Both the position numbers and the translations under genes were made by a program. From a candidate division WS6 bacterium OLB21 (GTDB lineage Bacteria > Patescibacteriota > Dojkabacteria > B142 > OLB20), in contig JYPD01000025.1 of assembly GCA_001567305.1 (NCBI GenBank), positions 62,001-126,000 of the forward strand: a stretch of 64,000 nt of DNA. Reading direction: 5' to 3'. The notes beneath the pieces are model-generated. The model was given only the letters and a program-made list of their open reading frames with translations, ran no database searches and was not told the origin of the DNA. Shown here piece after piece: positions 41,522 through 56,298 of the stretch (positions within the stretch are counted from its first letter, which is position 1; every line of letters starts with the position of its first letter).

Positions 41522-42276
41522 TGGCCAAAGATTTATAAGCTTGTGCACCTTGTGATAATGGATCATAATCCGAGATTGCTTTTCCGTGAGAAGGAGCTTC
41601 TGATAATCTTACATTTCTGGGAATTATTGTTCTAAATACTTTGTCTCCGAAAAACTTTTGTACTTCTTCTGTAACCTGTTTTGCCAGATTTGTTCTTGAA
41701 TCGTACATGGTAAGAATAACGCCTCCTATCTCTAAGCGAGAGTTAAGTCTGTTCTTTACAATTTTGATCGTGTTAATGAGTTGACCAAGCCCTTCTAGAG
41801 CAAAGTATTCTGCTTGTACCGGTATGTAAGCCTGATCGCTTGCGGTTAGAGCGTTAATTGTAAGTATCCCAAGTGAAGGCGGACAGTCGATAAAGATAAA
41901 GTCAAAGCTGTCTTTTACTTTTGCCAAAGCACCCTTTAGAATAGATTCTCTGGATAGCGCTGATACGAGCTCAACTTCTGCCCCAGCCAATTCTATTCCC
42001 GCAGGTGCCAAGAATAGATTGTTATAAGGGGTCGCTAGAAAAATCTGGGATATGTCCATATCTCCGGTAAGAACATCGTAAACAGTGTTACTTATCTTTT
42101 TTTCTGCTCCATTTTGAACTGTCATCCCAAAACCTAAGCCTGATGTTAGGTTAGATTGTGGGTCAAGATCGACAAGGAGAACTTTTTTACCCTTTTCGGC
42201 CATGAACACACCTAGATTAATAGTTGTGGTCGTTTTTTCCGACTCCTCCTTTTTGGTTGATTATTGAGATTATCAT
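41496..42276 (-). CDS. parA: Chromosome-partitioning ATPase ParA/Soj, frameshifted in Walker A
   Basis: ParA is a deviant Walker ATPase that drives chromosome segregation with ParB. The obvious open part lacks its N-terminus. From the ATG at 42276 the sequence is MIISIINQKGGVGK, and an extra base in the A6 run (T6 at 42233-42238 on the plus strand) then breaks the Walker A. Without it the sequence reads [32 protein letters not shown]. Walker B is FDFIFIDCPPSLG. The joined length is about 259 residues. The start overlaps the stop of the signal peptidase gene (ATGA). Confidence 0.95.
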
Positions 42277-42935
42277 TGATTACTGTTTTGTTCTGTAAAC
42301 TCACCTTGTCTAATAATACCAAATTTGTTTACGGGCCAGTATCTGAAGAATACCCGTCCTTTTAGATTAGATCTTGAAACAAATCCAACCTCGATAAATC
42401 TTGAATCTTTTGAGTTCTCTCGATTGTCTCCCATAAGAAAGTAATGACCGGAAGGAACAACAAGTTCTTCACCTTCGCTAAGAAATGCCTGTGACCTGAA
42501 GGGGACACGGGTTCTAGTCGTTGTGGGAATATATCGTTCGTCGATCTTTTGTCCGTTTATGAAAACCTTGTCATCCTCAATTTTAATTCTGTCACCTGGA
42601 GTAGCGATTACTCTTTTAATAAGATCTGTGCCTTTGTTGTCGAATATAACGACATCCCCACGCTTGTAGTTGTAGTCAATGTTTAATGCCTTGGCAATAT
42701 CGCTGTCACCAAACCACTGAACAACCTTGTTTGTAAGAAGTAATTCAGTATTTTTAAAATTAGGTTCCATTGATTGACCTTCAACCTGATTGGGGATTGC
42801 AATAAACATATAGACAACTACGCTTATTGCCAAGGCGATAATAACGGTTTGTAATATGTCTACAAAGAAAGCCCTGGCTTTATTAGCGGGCTTGTATTCT
42901 ATCGGAGTTGCTATTGGTCCTGTTGTTAGTGCCAT
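42273..42935 (-). CDS. lepB: Signal peptidase I, first copy
   Basis: It removes signal peptides from exported proteins. The 220-residue protein has one N-terminal membrane helix (about 25-48), the nucleophile S55 in EGQSMEPNF and the general base K107 in DLIKRVIA, then GDRIKIEDDKVFING and GDNRENSKDSR. It is the second of two adjacent copies and overlaps parA by four bases. Amino-acid identity with the other copy is visible but partial. Confidence 0.95.
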   Translation of the reverse strand: MALTTGPIATPIEYKPANKARAFFVDILQTVIIALAISVVVYMFIAIPNQVEGQSMEPNFKNTELLLTNKVVQWFGDSDIAKALNIDYNYKRGDVVIFDNKGTDLIKRVIATPGDRIKIEDDKVFINGQKIDERYIPTTTRTRVPFRSQAFLSEGEELVVPSGHYFLMGDNRENSKDSRFIEVGFVSRSNLKGRVFFRYWPVNKFGIIRQGEFTEQNSNQ

Positions 42936-42971
42936 CTTGCTTGCTTAGTATAACTTTAAAACCAAGTGGGA

Positions 42972-43619
42972 TCAATCAAGATTAGTTGTGCCTCTTCCAA
43001 TGATTCCGAAAGCGTTGAGTGGCCAGTATCTAAGAAATACCCTTCCAGAAAGATTTTCTGCAGGGACAAAGCCGACATCTGAAAACCTTGAATCTTTGCT
43101 GTTCGGTCTATTGTCTCCAAGTATGAAAAAGTGATCATCTGGAACCACAACTGTTTCTCCTTCGCGAAAAGTCGCTTGTGATCCGAAAGGCATAAAAGTC
43201 GGTTTATCTAGTGGATCTATGTAATCTTCGTCTAGCAGTGTGTCGTTTACATAAACTCTGCCGTTTTCGACCTTAACAAAATCTCCAGATTTAGCAATTA
43301 TCCTTTTAATAAGAAGAATATCTTCGAAGGGAAATACAACGACATCGCCTCTATCATAGTCGTAATTTAAGCTTGCCCCGATTGGAGTATTTCTAAACAG
43401 GTTTATAGTTTTATCTGTGAACAGTTGTTCTTTATCGCGGAAGTTTGGTTCCATAGATACTCCGTCAACCTGGTTTGGAAGGAGAATTACTAAATAGAGG
43501 AGTACGACAACAACAAGACCAATTGCCAAGAATTGAAGTAAATTGACAAATTTGCCACATTTACTGCTTTGTTTTGTTTCGTTGTAAAAAAACTCATTTG
43601 TTTTAATATCGGCAGCCAT
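42972..43619 (-). CDS. lepB: Signal peptidase I, second copy
   Basis: The 215-residue paralog has S55 in DGVSMEPNF and K105 in LLIKRIIA, and GDNRPNSKDSR near the end. The N-terminal ~20 residues differ from those of the other copy. It lies six bases after ileS and 36 bases before the other lepB. Two copies in a compact genome suggest different substrates, in line with the many anchored surface proteins here. Confidence 0.95.
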   Translation of the reverse strand: MAADIKTNEFFYNETKQSSKCGKFVNLLQFLAIGLVVVVLLYLVILLPNQVDGVSMEPNFRDKEQLFTDKTINLFRNTPIGASLNYDYDRGDVVVFPFEDILLIKRIIAKSGDFVKVENGRVYVNDTLLDEDYIDPLDKPTFMPFGSQATFREGETVVVPDDHFFILGDNRPNSKDSRFSDVGFVPAENLSGRVFLRYWPLNAFGIIGRGTTNLD

Positions 43620-43625
43620 TGTTGT

Positions 43626-46600
43626 TTATTCCTTATTAATTTTCACCATCAGTTTAATTCCATCGAGCACGATTTGTTTCCAATCTTCTGAAACCTCTTT
43701 TGATCTGGTAAGTGCTTTTGCACCTGTACCTTCTTTAAGGGTGTCTTCTAGCAGATTGAACACATTGGCAATATCTGCGTCTTCACAGTAATAATGGAGA
43801 TTGATCTTGTCACTCAATTGTAGACCAGTTTGTTTTCGCAAGTCTTGGACATGCCTGATTATTTCGCGAGCTATTCCTTCGCGTTTTAGCTCTGCGCTAA
43901 TGTTAAAATCGACTGCTATCTTAATGTTCGCCTGCTCGTCTTCGGCGAGAACCCAGCCTTCTGATGTAGTAATTTCTTTTTCCTCGTCCACGGTTTTAAT
44001 GTTTAGCTCTTCACTTATCAGATTCTTCATCCATTCCTCTATCTCGAAATTTCTTGAAGGTTCTGAGTCAGACTTAATCTCTATCTCTGACAGAGGCTGT
44101 CGAACTTTAACGCCATGTTTTACTCGAAGAGCTTGACCAAGAGCAACTATGCTTCTGACTTTTTCCATTTGCATAAGTATCAAGTCTGACTTCTCAAGAA
44201 AGTCCTTGTCTGTTTCGGGATAATCACACAAATGAACAGATTGCGGGATGTTCTGCAATCTTTTTGCACTTAGGTTTAAATAGATCGCCTCTGAAAGGAA
44301 TGGTGTGAATGGCGCTAGCAATTGAATGTACTCGTTAAGGACATAATACAAAACATCCATTGCCTGCTGATCTCCGGATGCAAAGCGATCTCGAGATCTT
44401 CTTATGTACCATTTTGACAAATCCTCAAGAAACATTGGGAGCTCTCTGAGGGCCGCAGGCAGATTATATTCATTCATGCGTATTCTTACCTCGCGGATGA
44501 TCATCTGTAACTTTGCTATTATCCATTGATCGAGTTTGTTGTCGATGTTGCTGAACGGTACTTTGTCCCATATCTCGTTTGGATTGTCTGTCAGAGCTTG
44601 GACAAGTTCTGCTGATGGTTGCCAATTATGCATATTTGCATAGGTAACGAAGAACGAGTAACTGTTCCATAATGGCAGTATAAAGTTCCTAACTTGTTCG
44701 CTAATATTTTTTTCGTCGATATTCATGTCGTCTCCAACCATTAATGGAGAGGCCATTAGATATAATCTCAGGGCTTCTGCTCCGTAGGTTTCGAGGACGC
44801 CTTTGGGGTCGGGATAGTTGCCGTAGCTTTTACTCATCTTTCTTCCGTCGTTTCCAAAGATGATTCCTGTCGTAACGACATTTTTAAAAGAGGGTTTTTT
44901 CATTAATGCTGTTGAAAGAACATGCATAACATAAAACCAAGCTCGGGTTTGTCCGATATATTCAACGATGTAATCTGCCGGATAGCTGGCTTCATACTTT
45001 TCTTTATTCTCGAAAGGGTAGTGAACTTGAGCGTTAGGCATAGAAGCACTGTCCATCCATACATCAAGTACTTCTGGGACGCGGGTAAGCTCTCCATGTT
45101 CTCCTTTTAACTTGATGCTGTCGATTTTGGGTCTATGGAGATCAAGCATCTCGTCTCCTGTAAAGAAGTAGGTTATAAATTCTCCTTTTTTGACCTGCAT
45201 CATAAGAACCTCGTTTAGGTTTCTTCCTTCAACAAAATGTCTGATTAGTGAAATCATTAACTCTGAAGTTGAAGCCAAGATGTACTTACCTTTATTGTTG
45301 TCCAGAAAGATCTCGAATTCTTTTCTGAGTTCGTACAAATGCTCTTTTAGGCTTTGTTGAATATCTGCCTCTGCAAGTGAGCTGACTTCTTCTACGCCTT
45401 TGCTTTGTAGCAGTTCTTGTAGAGTGTTCTGTATTTCGTTTGTTAGAGAAGGGGATCCAAGAAACTGTACTTCTTGAGGTTCGAGTTTATTTCGTTGTGC
45501 AAGTTCGGTCAAAGACTGCACGGCATTGCTGCCTGCAGAAGTTATTATCAGGTCAAACTTCTCGTTTTCAAGTCTAGTATTCGTTGTTGTAGTAATTTTA
45601 TCCTCATCCGCCAGATTAAGGAACAGAACCTTAGTTATCGGCTCGATAGATTTTTCACGAAGTTCATCTCTGGAACCGATAACTATTCTTTCTACAACAG
45701 TTCCAGCTTCTTCTCGTTGCCAGACAGGTAAAGGCGTACCCCAGAATCTGGTTCTTGAGATGCCCCAATCGGGAGCCATTTCTATTCCTTTCTTAAAGCG
45801 TCCGTGTTTTAGATGCGCAGGAACCCAATTAATCTTTTCGTTATTTGCCAAAAGCTCTGGCTTCATTTTCTGAATGTTTATGAACCACGAGTGTTGAGCT
45901 CTTTGGATAAGTGCTACTCCTGATCTTGGCGAAAATGGGAATCGATGAACAATCCTTTCGCTTTTGAATAGAATATTCTTATTCTTCAGGTCTCTTGTTA
46001 TGATGCTGTCTGCATCTTTTATGTACATGCCCGCGTAATCCACAACATAGCTGTTGTATTTACCTTCGTCATCGATTACATCAACGGCAATATCTATACC
46101 GTTGTCTTTACCCATTTCTGTGTCAATCTCTCCGAAACCTGGGGCTGAGTGAACAATTCCCGTTCCGTCTTCCATATGTACCATGCCTTCGTACGCATAG
46201 ACTTTATGGTCATTTTCTTTTGAAGGGATGAAATCGAATGGTGGTTGATAAGAAAGCCCAAGTAATGTTTCTCCTTTGAAGGTATCTAGCTTTTCGAAAT
46301 CCATTCTGTCAAGAACAGCTTCAATTCTTTTTTCTGCCAAAATCACTTCTTCGTGAACAACGGCTTTTTCATAGTCGTGAGCTTCTTGAACAAAAGCGTC
46401 GTTTATGGCTTGAACTTGAGAGATATCGAGTCCGGCAATTTTGGGTGGATAGATACCTTCGCTGTCTGTAACTTCTTTGCCAAACCAGCTAGGCGGAACA
46501 AACTGATTTGTAGCTTTCGCACTAGGAAATTCGACTTCAATAACAGTTAAGCCGGATAAGTTGTTTTGATATACATCAATCTCTGCTGTCAGCTTCTCGT

Positions 46601-47678
46601 CTAAAGGATAATAGTATCGAACTTTTACAACTTTGTTTTGCGCTTTTTTAATAAGCTCAACATATTTATCTTTACTGATTTCTTCTGTGTTCTCAAGAAG
46701 ACTACCTGTTGTATCTGATCCCCTTGCAAATGACTTTTTTGTAAGTTCATATTTGTTGTCGATTTTTCGAATTCGGACATCTTTATAAACTACACCATCA
46801 GTTTCGTCGTAGCTCTCGAGATATGCCTGCGTTATTTGTGACTGCTTAGCTTTTCTTATGTCTGCCGGAAGCTCATTGAGCAACCAGGCTCGTTCGATTT
46901 CGCTATCAAGTCTGGCTACTCTAACTAGACAATAGTTTTCTTGTGGATCTACGACTAGTGCCTTGTTGGCGGGTAATGTCCAGGGAGTGGTCGTCCAGGC
47001 AAGGATAGATTTGCCTTGCAAATTACCTTCTGAAGTTATTGGAAATTTGATTGTAACGGCTGGATCTTCAACATCTCCATAAGAATTATCCATAGCTATT
47101 TCGAAGTTCGAGATCGGCGTCCCAAGAATCGTGTCATACAACGATGTTCTAACTCCTTCGTATATGTAGCCGTTTTCGTATAGCTGTTTAAAGTTCCACA
47201 TTACGGATTCCATATAGTCCTGGTCCATTGTTTTATAGCTATTGTTGAAATCAACCCAGCGTCCAATTTTTTCAATGTAGAATCTCCATTCTGCAGAGGT
47301 TTCTCTGGTGTATGTGTAGCAGCGGTCGATAAATCTTTGTACTCCGTAGGCTTCGATGTCTTTTCTGGTCTTTAGTCCCAGTTCTTTTTCTACCTTTGAC
47401 TCTATTGGCAATCCATGACAATCCCAACCCCAGACTCTTTCAACTTTTTTGCCAAGCATTGTCTGGTATCTAGGAACAACATCTTTGGCAATGCTTCCAA
47501 GCAGGTGTCCGTAATGTGGAAGTCCGGTAATGAAAGGTGGTCCATCATAAAAAACATATCTTTCAGAATCGTCGCGATTGGAAATTGATTTTTCGAAGAT
47601 CGAATTTTCTTTCCAAAATTTATTTATCTTAGATTCAAGGTCTGGAAGGTTAAGTTTGGGATTTACCGGATCAAACAT
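43626..47678 (-). CDS. ileS: Isoleucyl-tRNA synthetase with CYTH and histidine-phosphatase-like insertions
   Basis: It charges tRNA-Ile. At 1350 residues it is some 300 longer than usual. The core is intact: HYGH at 55-58, WTTTPWTLPANKA (editing domain) from 228, DGTGIVHSAPGFGEID near 504, SRTRFWGTPLPVW near 641, and KMSKS at 947-951. Between the editing strand ending at ~255 and VILAEKRIEAVL (~445) sits a CYTH domain: EIERAWLL, ITQAYLE, VRIRKIDNKYELTKK, VKVRYYYPL, AEIDVYQ, VIEVEFPS, PPSWFGKEVT. Between GSRDELREKS (~677) and DLHRPKID (~853) sits a histidine-phosphatase-like fold (FDLIITSAGSNAVQSLTELA, then YILASTSELMISLI) without the RHG motif. I find no indels in the gene. Confidence 0.95.
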   Translation of the reverse strand: MFDPVNPKLNLPDLESKINKFWKENSIFEKSISNRDDSERYVFYDGPPFITGLPHYGHLLGSIAKDVVPRYQTMLGKKVERVWGWDCHGLPIESKVEKELGLKTRKDIEAYGVQRFIDRCYTYTRETSAEWRFYIEKIGRWVDFNNSYKTMDQDYMESVMWNFKQLYENGYIYEGVRTSLYDTILGTPISNFEIAMDNSYGDVEDPAVTIKFPITSEGNLQGKSILAWTTTPWTLPANKALVVDPQENYCLVRVARLDSEIERAWLLNELPADIRKAKQSQITQAYLESYDETDGVVYKDVRIRKIDNKYELTKKSFARGSDTTGSLLENTEEISKDKYVELIKKAQNKVVKVRYYYPLDEKLTAEIDVYQNNLSGLTVIEVEFPSAKATNQFVPPSWFGKEVTDSEGIYPPKIAGLDISQVQAINDAFVQEAHDYEKAVVHEEVILAEKRIEAVLDRMDFEKLDTFKGETLLGLSYQPPFDFIPSKENDHKVYAYEGMVHMEDGTGIVHSAPGFGEIDTEMGKDNGIDIAVDVIDDEGKYNSYVVDYAGMYIKDADSIITRDLKNKNILFKSERIVHRFPFSPRSGVALIQRAQHSWFINIQKMKPELLANNEKINWVPAHLKHGRFKKGIEMAPDWGISRTRFWGTPLPVWQREEAGTVVERIVIGSRDELREKSIEPITKVLFLNLADEDKITTTTNTRLENEKFDLIITSAGSNAVQSLTELAQRNKLEPQEVQFLGSPSLTNEIQNTLQELLQSKGVEEVSSLAEADIQQSLKEHLYELRKEFEIFLDNNKGKYILASTSELMISLIRHFVEGRNLNEVLMMQVKKGEFITYFFTGDEMLDLHRPKIDSIKLKGEHGELTRVPEVLDVWMDSASMPNAQVHYPFENKEKYEASYPADYIVEYIGQTRAWFYVMHVLSTALMKKPSFKNVVTTGIIFGNDGRKMSKSYGNYPDPKGVLETYGAEALRLYLMASPLMVGDDMNIDEKNISEQVRNFILPLWNSYSFFVTYANMHNWQPSAELVQALTDNPNEIWDKVPFSNIDNKLDQWIIAKLQMIIREVRIRMNEYNLPAALRELPMFLEDLSKWYIRRSRDRFASGDQQAMDVLYYVLNEYIQLLAPFTPFLSEAIYLNLSAKRLQNIPQSVHLCDYPETDKDFLEKSDLILMQMEKVRSIVALGQALRVKHGVKVRQPLSEIEIKSDSEPSRNFEIEEWMKNLISEELNIKTVDEEKEITTSEGWVLAEDEQANIKIAVDFNISAELKREGIAREIIRHVQDLRKQTGLQLSDKINLHYYCEDADIANVFNLLEDTLKEGTGAKALTRSKEVSEDWKQIVLDGIKLMVKINKE

Positions 47679-53696: not shown

Positions 53697-54833
53697 ATGA
53701 ATCAGCCTCATGGTGGTGTTCTCATAAATCGCTTTGCAAATAAAGATAAACTTTCTTTTGATAATATAGCTCTGTCTATCGAGCTCGATGACGATCAGCT
53801 TAGTGAGGTTAAAAATATTGCAGTCGGAACATATAGTCCATTAAACGGCTACATGAATAAAGATGACTTTGAAAGTGTTCTTGAGAAAGCTAGGTTAACA
53901 AACGGAGTACCATGGAGTGTTCCTGTATTTCTGCCTGTTTCCAAGGTAGATTATCGATGCATAAAAGTTGGTGGTCAGGTATCCTTGCGTTACAAAGGCA
54001 AAGATATTGCGCTTATGGAGGTCTCTGATAAATTTACCTTCGATGCAGAAAAGTATGTAAAAAGTGTTTATGGCACAACAGACCCCAATCACCCTGGAGT
54101 GGCGATGATTAATTCGCTAAGTACTTATGTCATCGGAGGAGAAATCTGGGTGTATGAAGAACTTCCATCCAAGTATCTTGAATTTGATTTACCTCCACAA
54201 AAAACGAGAGAGCTATTCGCCGAAAAAGGCTGGAATACAGTCGTAGGTTTTCAGACTCGTAATGCAGCCCACCGTGCTCATGAATTCATTCAAAAGATGT
54301 GTCTTGAATTTGTTGATGGGTTATTCATTAATCCAATCATAGGCAAAAAGAAGAGCGGGGATTTTACAGACGAGGTCATCTTAGCTGTCTATAAAATGCT
54401 GGTAAGAGATTTTTATCCTGCCAACTCTACTGCTATCGGTGTTTATAGTTCGAGAATGCACTATGCTGGTCCCAAAGAGGCAATCTTTCATGCGATAGTT
54501 CGAAAAAACTTCGGTTGTACACATTTTATTGTGGGTAGAGACCATGCCGGCGTGGGCGACTATTACGACAAATTTGCAGCACACAGAATATTCGATGAGT
54601 TTGAAGATATCGGAATTGTACCTATGCGAGTAAGTAATGCCTTCTTTGATAAAAAATCCGATATGTATACGACTCAAAAGGCGTCACCATTCGGACCAGA
54701 ACATTGGATTTCTCCTAGTGGGACAGAAGTGCGCAGACTAATCAAAGAAAAAAATTATAAAGACTTGAAGTATATTCTTCGACCAGAAGTTTTGGAAGAA
54801 ATTCTTAAGTTCAAAGAGCCCTTCGTGTTATAG
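53697..54833 (+). CDS. sat: Sulfate adenylyltransferase (ATP sulfurylase)
   Basis: It makes adenosine phosphosulfate from ATP and sulfate. The 378-residue protein keeps the substrate loop QTRNAAHRAHE at 186-196 and GRDHAGVGDYY at 280-290, with YSSRMHYAGPKEA between. It is of the homo-oligomeric Sat type. An AGG sits at good spacing before the ATG. Followed 20 bases later by cysC and then a sulfotransferase, it most likely serves PAPS supply and not energy metabolism or reduction, since no APS reductase is seen. Confidence 0.96.
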   Translation: MNQPHGGVLINRFANKDKLSFDNIALSIELDDDQLSEVKNIAVGTYSPLNGYMNKDDFESVLEKARLTNGVPWSVPVFLPVSKVDYRCIKVGGQVSLRYKGKDIALMEVSDKFTFDAEKYVKSVYGTTDPNHPGVAMINSLSTYVIGGEIWVYEELPSKYLEFDLPPQKTRELFAEKGWNTVVGFQTRNAAHRAHEFIQKMCLEFVDGLFINPIIGKKKSGDFTDEVILAVYKMLVRDFYPANSTAIGVYSSRMHYAGPKEAIFHAIVRKNFGCTHFIVGRDHAGVGDYYDKFAAHRIFDEFEDIGIVPMRVSNAFFDKKSDMYTTQKASPFGPEHWISPSGTEVRRLIKEKNYKDLKYILRPEVLEEILKFKEPFVL

Positions 54834-54853
54834 TAGATTTTTAATGCTTTAAT

Positions 54854-55387
54854 ATGAAGATAAGCAAGCCTTTCTGTCTTTGGTTTACAGGACTTCCTTC
54901 ATCCGGAAAGACAACAACAGCATTAGCATTGAAAGATAAATTTACAGAGTCTGGAATAAATATCGTACATCTAGATGGAGATGTGGTTAGAAAGGGATTA
55001 AATTCTGACCTCGGTCTTTCTAAAGAAGATAGAGAAGAAAACAACAGAAGGGTTATTCATGTCTCCGAAATTGTTGTTGGTAGCGGCATTCCTGTAATAA
55101 GCTCTTTCATCTCTCCATATAAATCTACTCGAGATTTTGCCAAATTAACAATTCCAAATTATATTGAGGTGTTTGTAAATACACCTTTAAAAGAATGTGA
55201 GAGACGCGATGTAAAGGGCCTTTACGCAAAAGCTAGAGCAGGTGAAATAAAAGGGTTAACCGGATACGACGACCCCTACGAAGAGCCTCTTGCTGCAGAT
55301 ATTATTCTGGATACTGTTGACCACGATCTAGAAGAAAATATGATTCAAATAATTTCCTTTCTAAGACAGCAGAATTTCATTAATTAA
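54854..55387 (+). CDS. cysC: Adenylylsulfate kinase
   Basis: It phosphorylates APS to PAPS. The 177 residues include the P-loop GLPSSGKTT at 13-21, HLDGDVVRKGLNSDLG, and YAKARAGEIKGLTGYDDPYE, all typical of CysC. It is intact. It lies between sat and the sulfotransferase on the same strand. No PAP phosphatase is in the window. Confidence 0.97.
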   Translation: MKISKPFCLWFTGLPSSGKTTTALALKDKFTESGINIVHLDGDVVRKGLNSDLGLSKEDREENNRRVIHVSEIVVGSGIPVISSFISPYKSTRDFAKLTIPNYIEVFVNTPLKECERRDVKGLYAKARAGEIKGLTGYDDPYEEPLAADIILDTVDHDLEENMIQIISFLRQQNFIN

Positions 55388-55404
55388 TATCTTAACTATT
55401 GAAA

Positions 55405-56298
55405 ATGCAAAAACACATATACCACAAATATGTTTCAACGGATTACTTCAATATTGCTGTCAATATCTCTCTTCAAAACAATTACTTGTACGTAGAAACC
55501 CCAAAGGTCGCTTGTTCAAAGATTAAATCGATTATTGAATGTATAGAACTGGGCAGAAACGATGTTTATGAACATAAAAGTCGGGATTTGATCCATCACA
55601 GGTCACATGCGCCTCTTCTGTCACCAAGACAAGTCTTTGACCTTGAGAAATTAATAACTGAAAGGAAAATGTATAAGTTCTGTTTCGTTAGAAATCCATA
55701 TACAAGGATACTCTCTGCCTATTTGAACAAGATTGAAGCAAACGAACCTGAGAAATATCAAATACTTTATCAACTGGGTCACCCTGCTGACCTGAACATA
55801 AAACTGACATTTCATGAATTCGTAAGCGCCATATATGAGACACCGCTTGCACACCTAGATCCACATTGGAAGCATCAGTATTATTTAACTTATCAAGATG
55901 ATATTGATTATGATTATGTTGGAAAAATTGAGAATTTCCAAAAAGATTTCACTAACATCCTAAAAGTGATAAATAAGCGCAAGCTAGTATTTGACTTAGG
56001 TAGCAAGATCAATTCTACAGATACTGATAAGATGATGAAGAAGCTCTATACTCGAGAAATTCGAGACATGGTATATAATAAATATCGGATCGATTTTGAT
56101 TATTTTGAATATTCTCCAGAGCTAAGCGTTTTTCCCGGTGAGAAGCCAAAAACCTGCGAAATGTTTGTAGATAAAAAAGTTAACGAAGATTATATTGGAG
56201 AGAGATATGCAGCACTTAAGGAGGAGATGGAAACGATTAATAGTACAAGACCTTGGAAAATGTATAAGAAAGTTAGAAAGACAATATTAAAGCGATAA
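55405..56298 (+). CDS. Carbohydrate sulfotransferase (sulfotransfer_2-like)
   Basis: The protein would move sulfate from PAPS to a sugar. From the ATG at 55405 it has 297 residues. ETPKVACSKIKSII (31-44) is the 5'-phosphosulfate loop and FVRNPYTRILSAY (94-106) the 3'-phosphate site, both as in HNK-1-type sulfotransferases. There is no signal peptide or membrane helix, so it should act in the cytoplasm, where PAPS is made, before export. The C-terminal NSTRPWKMYKKVRK motif is common in glycan-modifying proteins. The target glycan is not known. Confidence 0.88.
   Translation: MQKHIYHKYVSTDYFNIAVNISLQNNYLYVETPKVACSKIKSIIECIELGRNDVYEHKSRDLIHHRSHAPLLSPRQVFDLEKLITERKMYKFCFVRNPYTRILSAYLNKIEANEPEKYQILYQLGHPADLNIKLTFHEFVSAIYETPLAHLDPHWKHQYYLTYQDDIDYDYVGKIENFQKDFTNILKVINKRKLVFDLGSKINSTDTDKMMKKLYTREIRDMVYNKYRIDFDYFEYSPELSVFPGEKPKTCEMFVDKKVNEDYIGERYAALKEEMETINSTRPWKMYKKVRKTILKR

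Follow-up and report, generated by a model that had tools for sequence, protein, structure and literature searches.

The isoleucyl-tRNA synthetase (IleRS) encoded by ileS of candidate division WS6 bacterium OLB21 contains a complete CYTH/TTM-fold domain, at residues ~257-425, nested between two strands of its CP1 editing domain. The gene is found in a 64,000-nucleotide stretch of that genome (contig [GenBank:JYPD01000025.1], positions 62,001 to 126,000, read on the forward strand), hereafter the window, and all coordinates below count from its first nucleotide. An initial annotation, made from the sequence alone, had recognised a whole CYTH domain in the editing region of IleS; this is confirmed by sequence comparison, structure prediction and alignment with related genomes. 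The parts of the gene that concern the insert are:

43626..47678, minus strand: ileS, encoding an isoleucyl-tRNA synthetase that contains two inserts; 1350 residues in a single open frame without stop
46908..46937, minus strand: host CP1 strand ahead of the insert, residues 248-257 (NYCLVRVARL region); a strand in the model of residues 1-660, and the point up to which insert-free relatives (genomes G003 and G006) align
46404..46910, minus strand: CYTH/TTM-fold insert, residues ~257-425, from phmmer, AlphaFold, Foldseek and alignments
46362..46424, minus strand: helical linker or plug-like helix behind the tunnel, residues ~419-439; a helix in both models, with low confidence
46335..46361, minus strand: host CP1 strand past the insert, residues 440-448 (VVHEEVILA); a strand in the model of residues 1-660, aligning with insert-free relatives

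Identity and fold of the insert

The motifs of a CYTH domain occur in order along the insert: SEIERAW (259-265), ITQAYL (282-287), VRIRK (301-305), ELTKK (311-315), VVKVRYY (350-356), AEIDVY (365-370), VIEVEF (379-384) and WFGKEVT (398-404). Searched against solved structures with phmmer, the insert has two significant matches, 3typ (E 2.6e-11, 155 residues) and 2fbl (4e-11), both of them NE1496 of Nitrosomonas europaea, a CYTH/TTM-family inorganic triphosphatase, and the match spans the whole domain. The insert also matches the phage family phrog_6660 (E 2.4e-21). NCBIfam gave no CYTH match for this insert or its four counterparts in related genomes (see below); two other candidates, dPGM_arch of NCBIfam (E 1.3e-4, one of five members) and PDDEXK_9 (0.0096), were set aside because neither recurs.

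Two separate AlphaFold models were made because phage CYTH rows misaligned when mixed with IleRS rows. The first covered residues 245-446 and used five free-standing phage CYTH sequences from a viral-contig scan as companion rows (six rows in total); querying viral contigs in two further scans with free-standing CYTH proteins gave no match. This model has the eight strands that the initial annotation had named as the structural check on its claim, with helices ordered as in CYTH, at a mean pLDDT (predicted local distance difference test) of 65.9. Compared with the Protein Data Bank (PDB) by Foldseek, it places NE1496 at the top (E 4.7e-9, probability 1.00, TM score 0.77 by target length), and ranks 1-14, which are all those with E <0.001, are occupied by TTM enzymes only, including PH1819, AtTTM3 and HpAC1. 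The second model covered residues 1-660 without CYTH companion rows, and only its host strands were used: the editing domain is modelled with confidence and the insert is bracketed by strands 248-257 and 440-448, the CYTH part itself being not confident. In the insert-free IleS of G003 and G006 the flanking CP1 strands are joined by a short turn. The domain thus lies where it had been placed at the outset; its earlier bounds (residues ~256-418, 46418-46917) are better drawn at ~257-425 and 46404-46910, with the helical linker running on to ~439.

Conservation of the tunnel and distribution of the insert

Among ten genomes of the window's order (G numbers denote genomes, L numbers loci), CYTH lies within the IleS frame (1193-1356 codons) in five, the window genome, G002, G004 and G005 of one family and G007 of another, at the same site in each; a search for such recurrence had been proposed along with the original claim. 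No second CYTH was found in any of these five genomes. G003, of the same family as the window, has an IleS without CYTH, and G008 has a free-standing 182-residue CYTH protein beside an IleS without CYTH. No further CYTH inside a synthetase turned up when 86 genomes of the class were searched with a profile and 380 genomes of the phylum by protein search; the other CYTH matches fall in frames 101-513 codons long, most of which encode free-standing proteins and some of which join CYTH to other domains. At three loci of other Patescibacteria (L034, L035, L045) the partner, as read from sequence, looks like a phosphohydrolase domain of HD type or like a P-loop ATPase. In the tree, the five inserts group as a single, fully supported clade (100/99), and the IleS of the order also group together (98/98); a single insertion event is likely from these sequences, the domain being absent from G003 and others or lost there.

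Tunnel residue roles were taken from PMC4641920 and PMC8233210. Invariant in all five inserts are E260 and E262 of the ExE pair, Tyr286, Arg302, Arg304, Lys315, Glu329, Lys352, Arg354, Glu366, Asp368 and the strand-8 residues Glu381 and Glu383, so that the basic residues of the tunnel are all present: the xRxR Arg pair (R302, R304), the strand-4 Lys (K315) and the KxR pair (K352, R354). The Lys of ExExK is replaced in every insert (A, C, A, S, S; A264 in the window) with both Glu retained, and the earlier observation that this is the only tunnel residue lost extends to the whole set. Invariance is concentrated in the tunnel, at 13 of 14 checked positions versus 66 of 169 positions overall (hypergeometric p 2e-5); for charged residues the corresponding counts are 12/12 in the tunnel and 11/39 elsewhere (p 9e-6). 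Identity to the window copy is 49-60% for the CYTH insert, 53-57% for the second half of the editing domain and 24-35% for a second, histidine phosphatase-like insert described below. Conservation of the CYTH insert roughly equals that of the surrounding editing domain, so that the insert is under selection. Flanking linker residues (VQKL; Q..H.YE) are also conserved among the inserts.

In the scheme of PMC8233210, a TTM is told from a cyclase or thiamine triphosphatase by a strand 8 in which both Glu of ExE are present and by the absence of the HF and W/YxRxR motifs. The insert has both E381 and E383 and neither of the two motifs, which points to a TTM-type triphosphatase by sequence pattern. 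The marks of class IV adenylyl cyclase (CyaB) are absent, there being no HF motif and position 383 being Glu, not Ala. The same paper lists a CYTH cluster (7) that likewise lacks the ExExK motif. The Lys is also absent from a number of the free-standing CYTH proteins found in the class (ELEKT, EIEKT), whereas the best-scoring free-standing one, in G428, retains it; its loss from the insert may predate or postdate the insertion. We accordingly file the insert, on its residues, as a divergent TTM-fold homologue and not as a canonical ExExK enzyme.

Possible function of the insert

We favour, at a probability of roughly 0.5, the reading of the CYTH insert as a tethered and probably active triphosphatase on IleRS; that it is catalytic, what it acts on and what is gained by tethering it are what we infer. 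A small complete TTM-type protein would have been inserted once, in an ancestor within the Dojkabacteria-like order, into the CP1 hairpin of IleRS, and purifying selection would since have maintained it as a folded domain that binds metal and triphosphate. It would act on the synthetase surface as an autonomous hydrolase of tripolyphosphate (PPPi) or another small triphosphate, the synthetase itself working normally, and a possible benefit of the tether would be local clearance of PPPi-like compounds able to attack aminoacyl-adenylate, or mere co-expression. The domain most likely hydrolyses a triphosphate or, at the least, binds one. Several points weigh against this reading. PF01928 of Pfam matches none of the five inserts and nothing in the window genome, and together with loss of the ExExK Lys this may mean that activity is altered or lost; the tunnel may be conserved for binding instead of catalysis; AlphaFold confidence for the insert is only moderate, at the pLDDT and six rows given above; and the domain is dispensable to IleRS, as the IleS of G003 has none.

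An insert that lies between two strands of the mobile CP1 domain and whose tunnel and linker residues are conserved would also suit a regulatory sensor, in which binding of a triphosphate (ATP, PPPi, an alarmone or polyphosphate) in the tunnel shifts the editing domain and tunes charging or proofreading. We consider this rather unlikely: the catalytic metal ligands are retained, although sensing alone would not need them, and the same slot holds a NUDIX domain in sister genomes and is empty in G003 and G006, with no conserved allosteric need visible. Retention of the metal ligands and the catalytic Arg favours catalysis over bare sensing. The role in sensing polyphosphate that the initial annotation had suggested is weakened in particular, because neither PPK1 nor PPK2 was matched in any of the ten order genomes. 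The domain might instead be an inert or structural guest, a small fold in a tolerant loop kept since it is harmless; inserts have been gained and lost between genera, the second insert of the window IleS has lost its catalytic motifs, and the K of ExExK is gone from this one. Such a guest is unlikely to show invariance concentrated on the tunnel residues and conservation matching that of its host domain.

Cet1 is an RNA triphosphatase with the TTM fold. That the fold includes RNA triphosphatases (PMC4641920), and that CP1 binds the tRNA 3' end during editing, lends some support to a role in which the basic tunnel contacts either the acceptor end of the tRNA or a 5'-triphosphate close to the editing domain; the closest solved relative is a tripolyphosphatase, and we regard an RNA role as improbable. 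RNase P RNA was found in 10 of 10 order genomes, which should leave tRNAs with a 5' monophosphate, and the idea of leaderless 5'-triphosphate tRNA was dropped on that ground. The window genome is a metagenome-assembled genome in 32 contigs, which raises the question of an assembly chimaera or a misread alignment; the chance of either is negligible, as the same junctions recur in five separate genomes from two families and an IleS-LepB-ParA-ParB neighbourhood is common to the window, G007 and G002.

The host synthetase, other nested hydrolases and known systems

The window IleS has the HIGH and KMSKS motifs, CP1 editing motifs, and anticodon and DUF5915 domains of an isoleucyl-tRNA synthetase, and its synthetic and editing motifs are all intact (HYGH, KMSKS, WTTTPWT, GFGEID). 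Pfam returned tRNA-synt_1 (E 1e-123), Anticodon_1 and DUF5915, leaving residues 250-440 unmatched. It is the only IleS found in its genome, where the other matches fit valyl- or leucyl-tRNA synthetase (ValRS, LeuRS). Further features of the gene are:

47505..47516, minus strand: HIGH motif (HYGH), residues 55-58, by sequence
46971..47003, minus strand: Thr-rich editing-site motif LAWTTTPWTLP, residues 226-236, intact by sequence alignment
46110..46166, minus strand: editing-site motif GTGIVHSAPGFGEIDTEMG, residues 505-523, Asp retained by sequence alignment
45144..45638, minus strand: second insert, residues 681-845, decayed and histidine phosphatase-like, at the zinc-ribbon site; from position and sequence homology to the domains of G003, G002 and G005
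44826..44840, minus strand: KMSKS motif, residues 947-951, by sequence

At 42273-43619, two tandem signal peptidase I genes directly follow ileS, with ParA after them, an arrangement found also in G002 and partly in G007. Elsewhere in the window (53697-56298), genes for sulfate adenylyltransferase, adenosine 5'-phosphosulfate (APS) kinase and a sulfotransferase-like protein lie within a surface-glycan cluster with ABC export genes; this gene set, as read from the sequence alone, suggests a sulfated surface glycan. G001, a member of the order that is 95% complete, has no IleS match, though ValRS and other synthetases were found, and its IleS is either missing from the assembly or replaced.

The initial annotation missed the second IleS insert as well as other hydrolase inserts in the Ile-, Val- and LeuRS of the order. 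Where the window IleS has its second insert, relatives carry a zinc ribbon. In the window copy the RHG motif reads NLA and the second His motif is lost, and the domain goes undetected when its own sequence is searched by itself. G003 retains the histidine phosphatase insert intact (Pfam E 2.5e-16), as do G002 and G005 to judge by motif (intact homologue loci L106, L028, L029); the insert is decayed in the window and in G004. Histidine phosphatase domains lie in synthetase-sized frames of many families across the phylum; three loci of other Patescibacteria (L112, L113, L013) encode IleRS with two intact ones per polypeptide.

Other guests were found in all three editing synthetases of the order and class (loci L103, L104, L105, L108, L109, L157, L158, L159, L161, L162 and L164 carry nested NUDIX, HAD, Ham1, RBBP9-like, ASCH or pyrophosphatase-like domains). 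The IleRS of G008 and G009 has NUDIX in the exact CYTH slot, preceded by an RBBP9-like serine hydrolase and followed by a histidine phosphatase; that of family f5 (G010, G017) has NUDIX in the serine-hydrolase slot. Inserts in ValRS comprise HAD, serine hydrolase and histidine phosphatase in G007, serine hydrolase and histidine phosphatase in G002, ASCH in G001 (by Pfam) and G004 (by similarity), and, in G008, a weak match to inorganic pyrophosphatase (E 4e-4) that falls short of the Pfam cut-off. NUDIX is present in the LeuRS of G007, and Ham1 and serine hydrolase in that of G008. The guests are mostly phosphate or nucleotide hydrolases, and the window CYTH is one of several swappable hydrolase guests in the editing synthetases of this lineage. 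A broader proposal, which we hold tentatively, is that Ile-, Val- and LeuRS here, and IleRS more widely in Patescibacteria, serve as scaffolds for swappable house-cleaning hydrolases (CYTH, NUDIX, histidine phosphatase, HAD, Ham1) that would clear phosphate or nucleotide compounds beside charging or add quality control, the window CYTH being active. The recurrence of unrelated hydrolases in these enzymes, sometimes in the same slot, raises the question whether they serve charging fidelity or pyrophosphate/triphosphate chemistry, or whether the synthetases are parking places in reduced genomes.

Additional domains, appended or inserted, are common in synthetases, class Ia included, where they serve editing, tRNA binding or new functions. 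In the open literature (a library of 5.39 million papers, subscription papers and preprints lying outside this scope) we found no CYTH, as the initial annotation had supposed, and no NUDIX, HAD or histidine phosphatase nested in Ile-, Val- or LeuRS, nor anything relevant on synthetase inserts in Patescibacteria. As far as could be tested, then, the nested TTM domain and the swappable nested hydrolases of Ile-, Val- and LeuRS are new, added synthetase domains as such being known, and the architecture of an essential, single-copy synthetase with a triphosphate-tunnel domain nested inside it is unreported. Because PF01928 does not detect the insert, it would escape an annotation pipeline, and the long IleRS, ValRS and LeuRS of Patescibacteria deserve a check for nested enzymes.

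NE1496 (NeuTTM; PDB 2fbl, 3typ) resembles the insert in sequence, predicted fold, tunnel charges, strand-8 ExE and WFGxEVT segment, but is a free-standing protein of ~150 residues that has the ExExK Lys and a C-terminal YKN-type segment, both altered in the insert. The free-standing ~180-residue CYTH proteins of the class (G008, G013, G046, G050, G428) share the length and tunnel residues of the insert and are likely its source type; unlike the insert, they have their own genes outside synthetases. The NUDIX insert in the IleRS of sister family f4 (G008, G009) is likewise a small phosphohydrolase fold nested in IleRS, in the same CP1 slot, but its fold is unrelated to CYTH, and RBBP9-like and histidine phosphatase inserts accompany it in the same protein.

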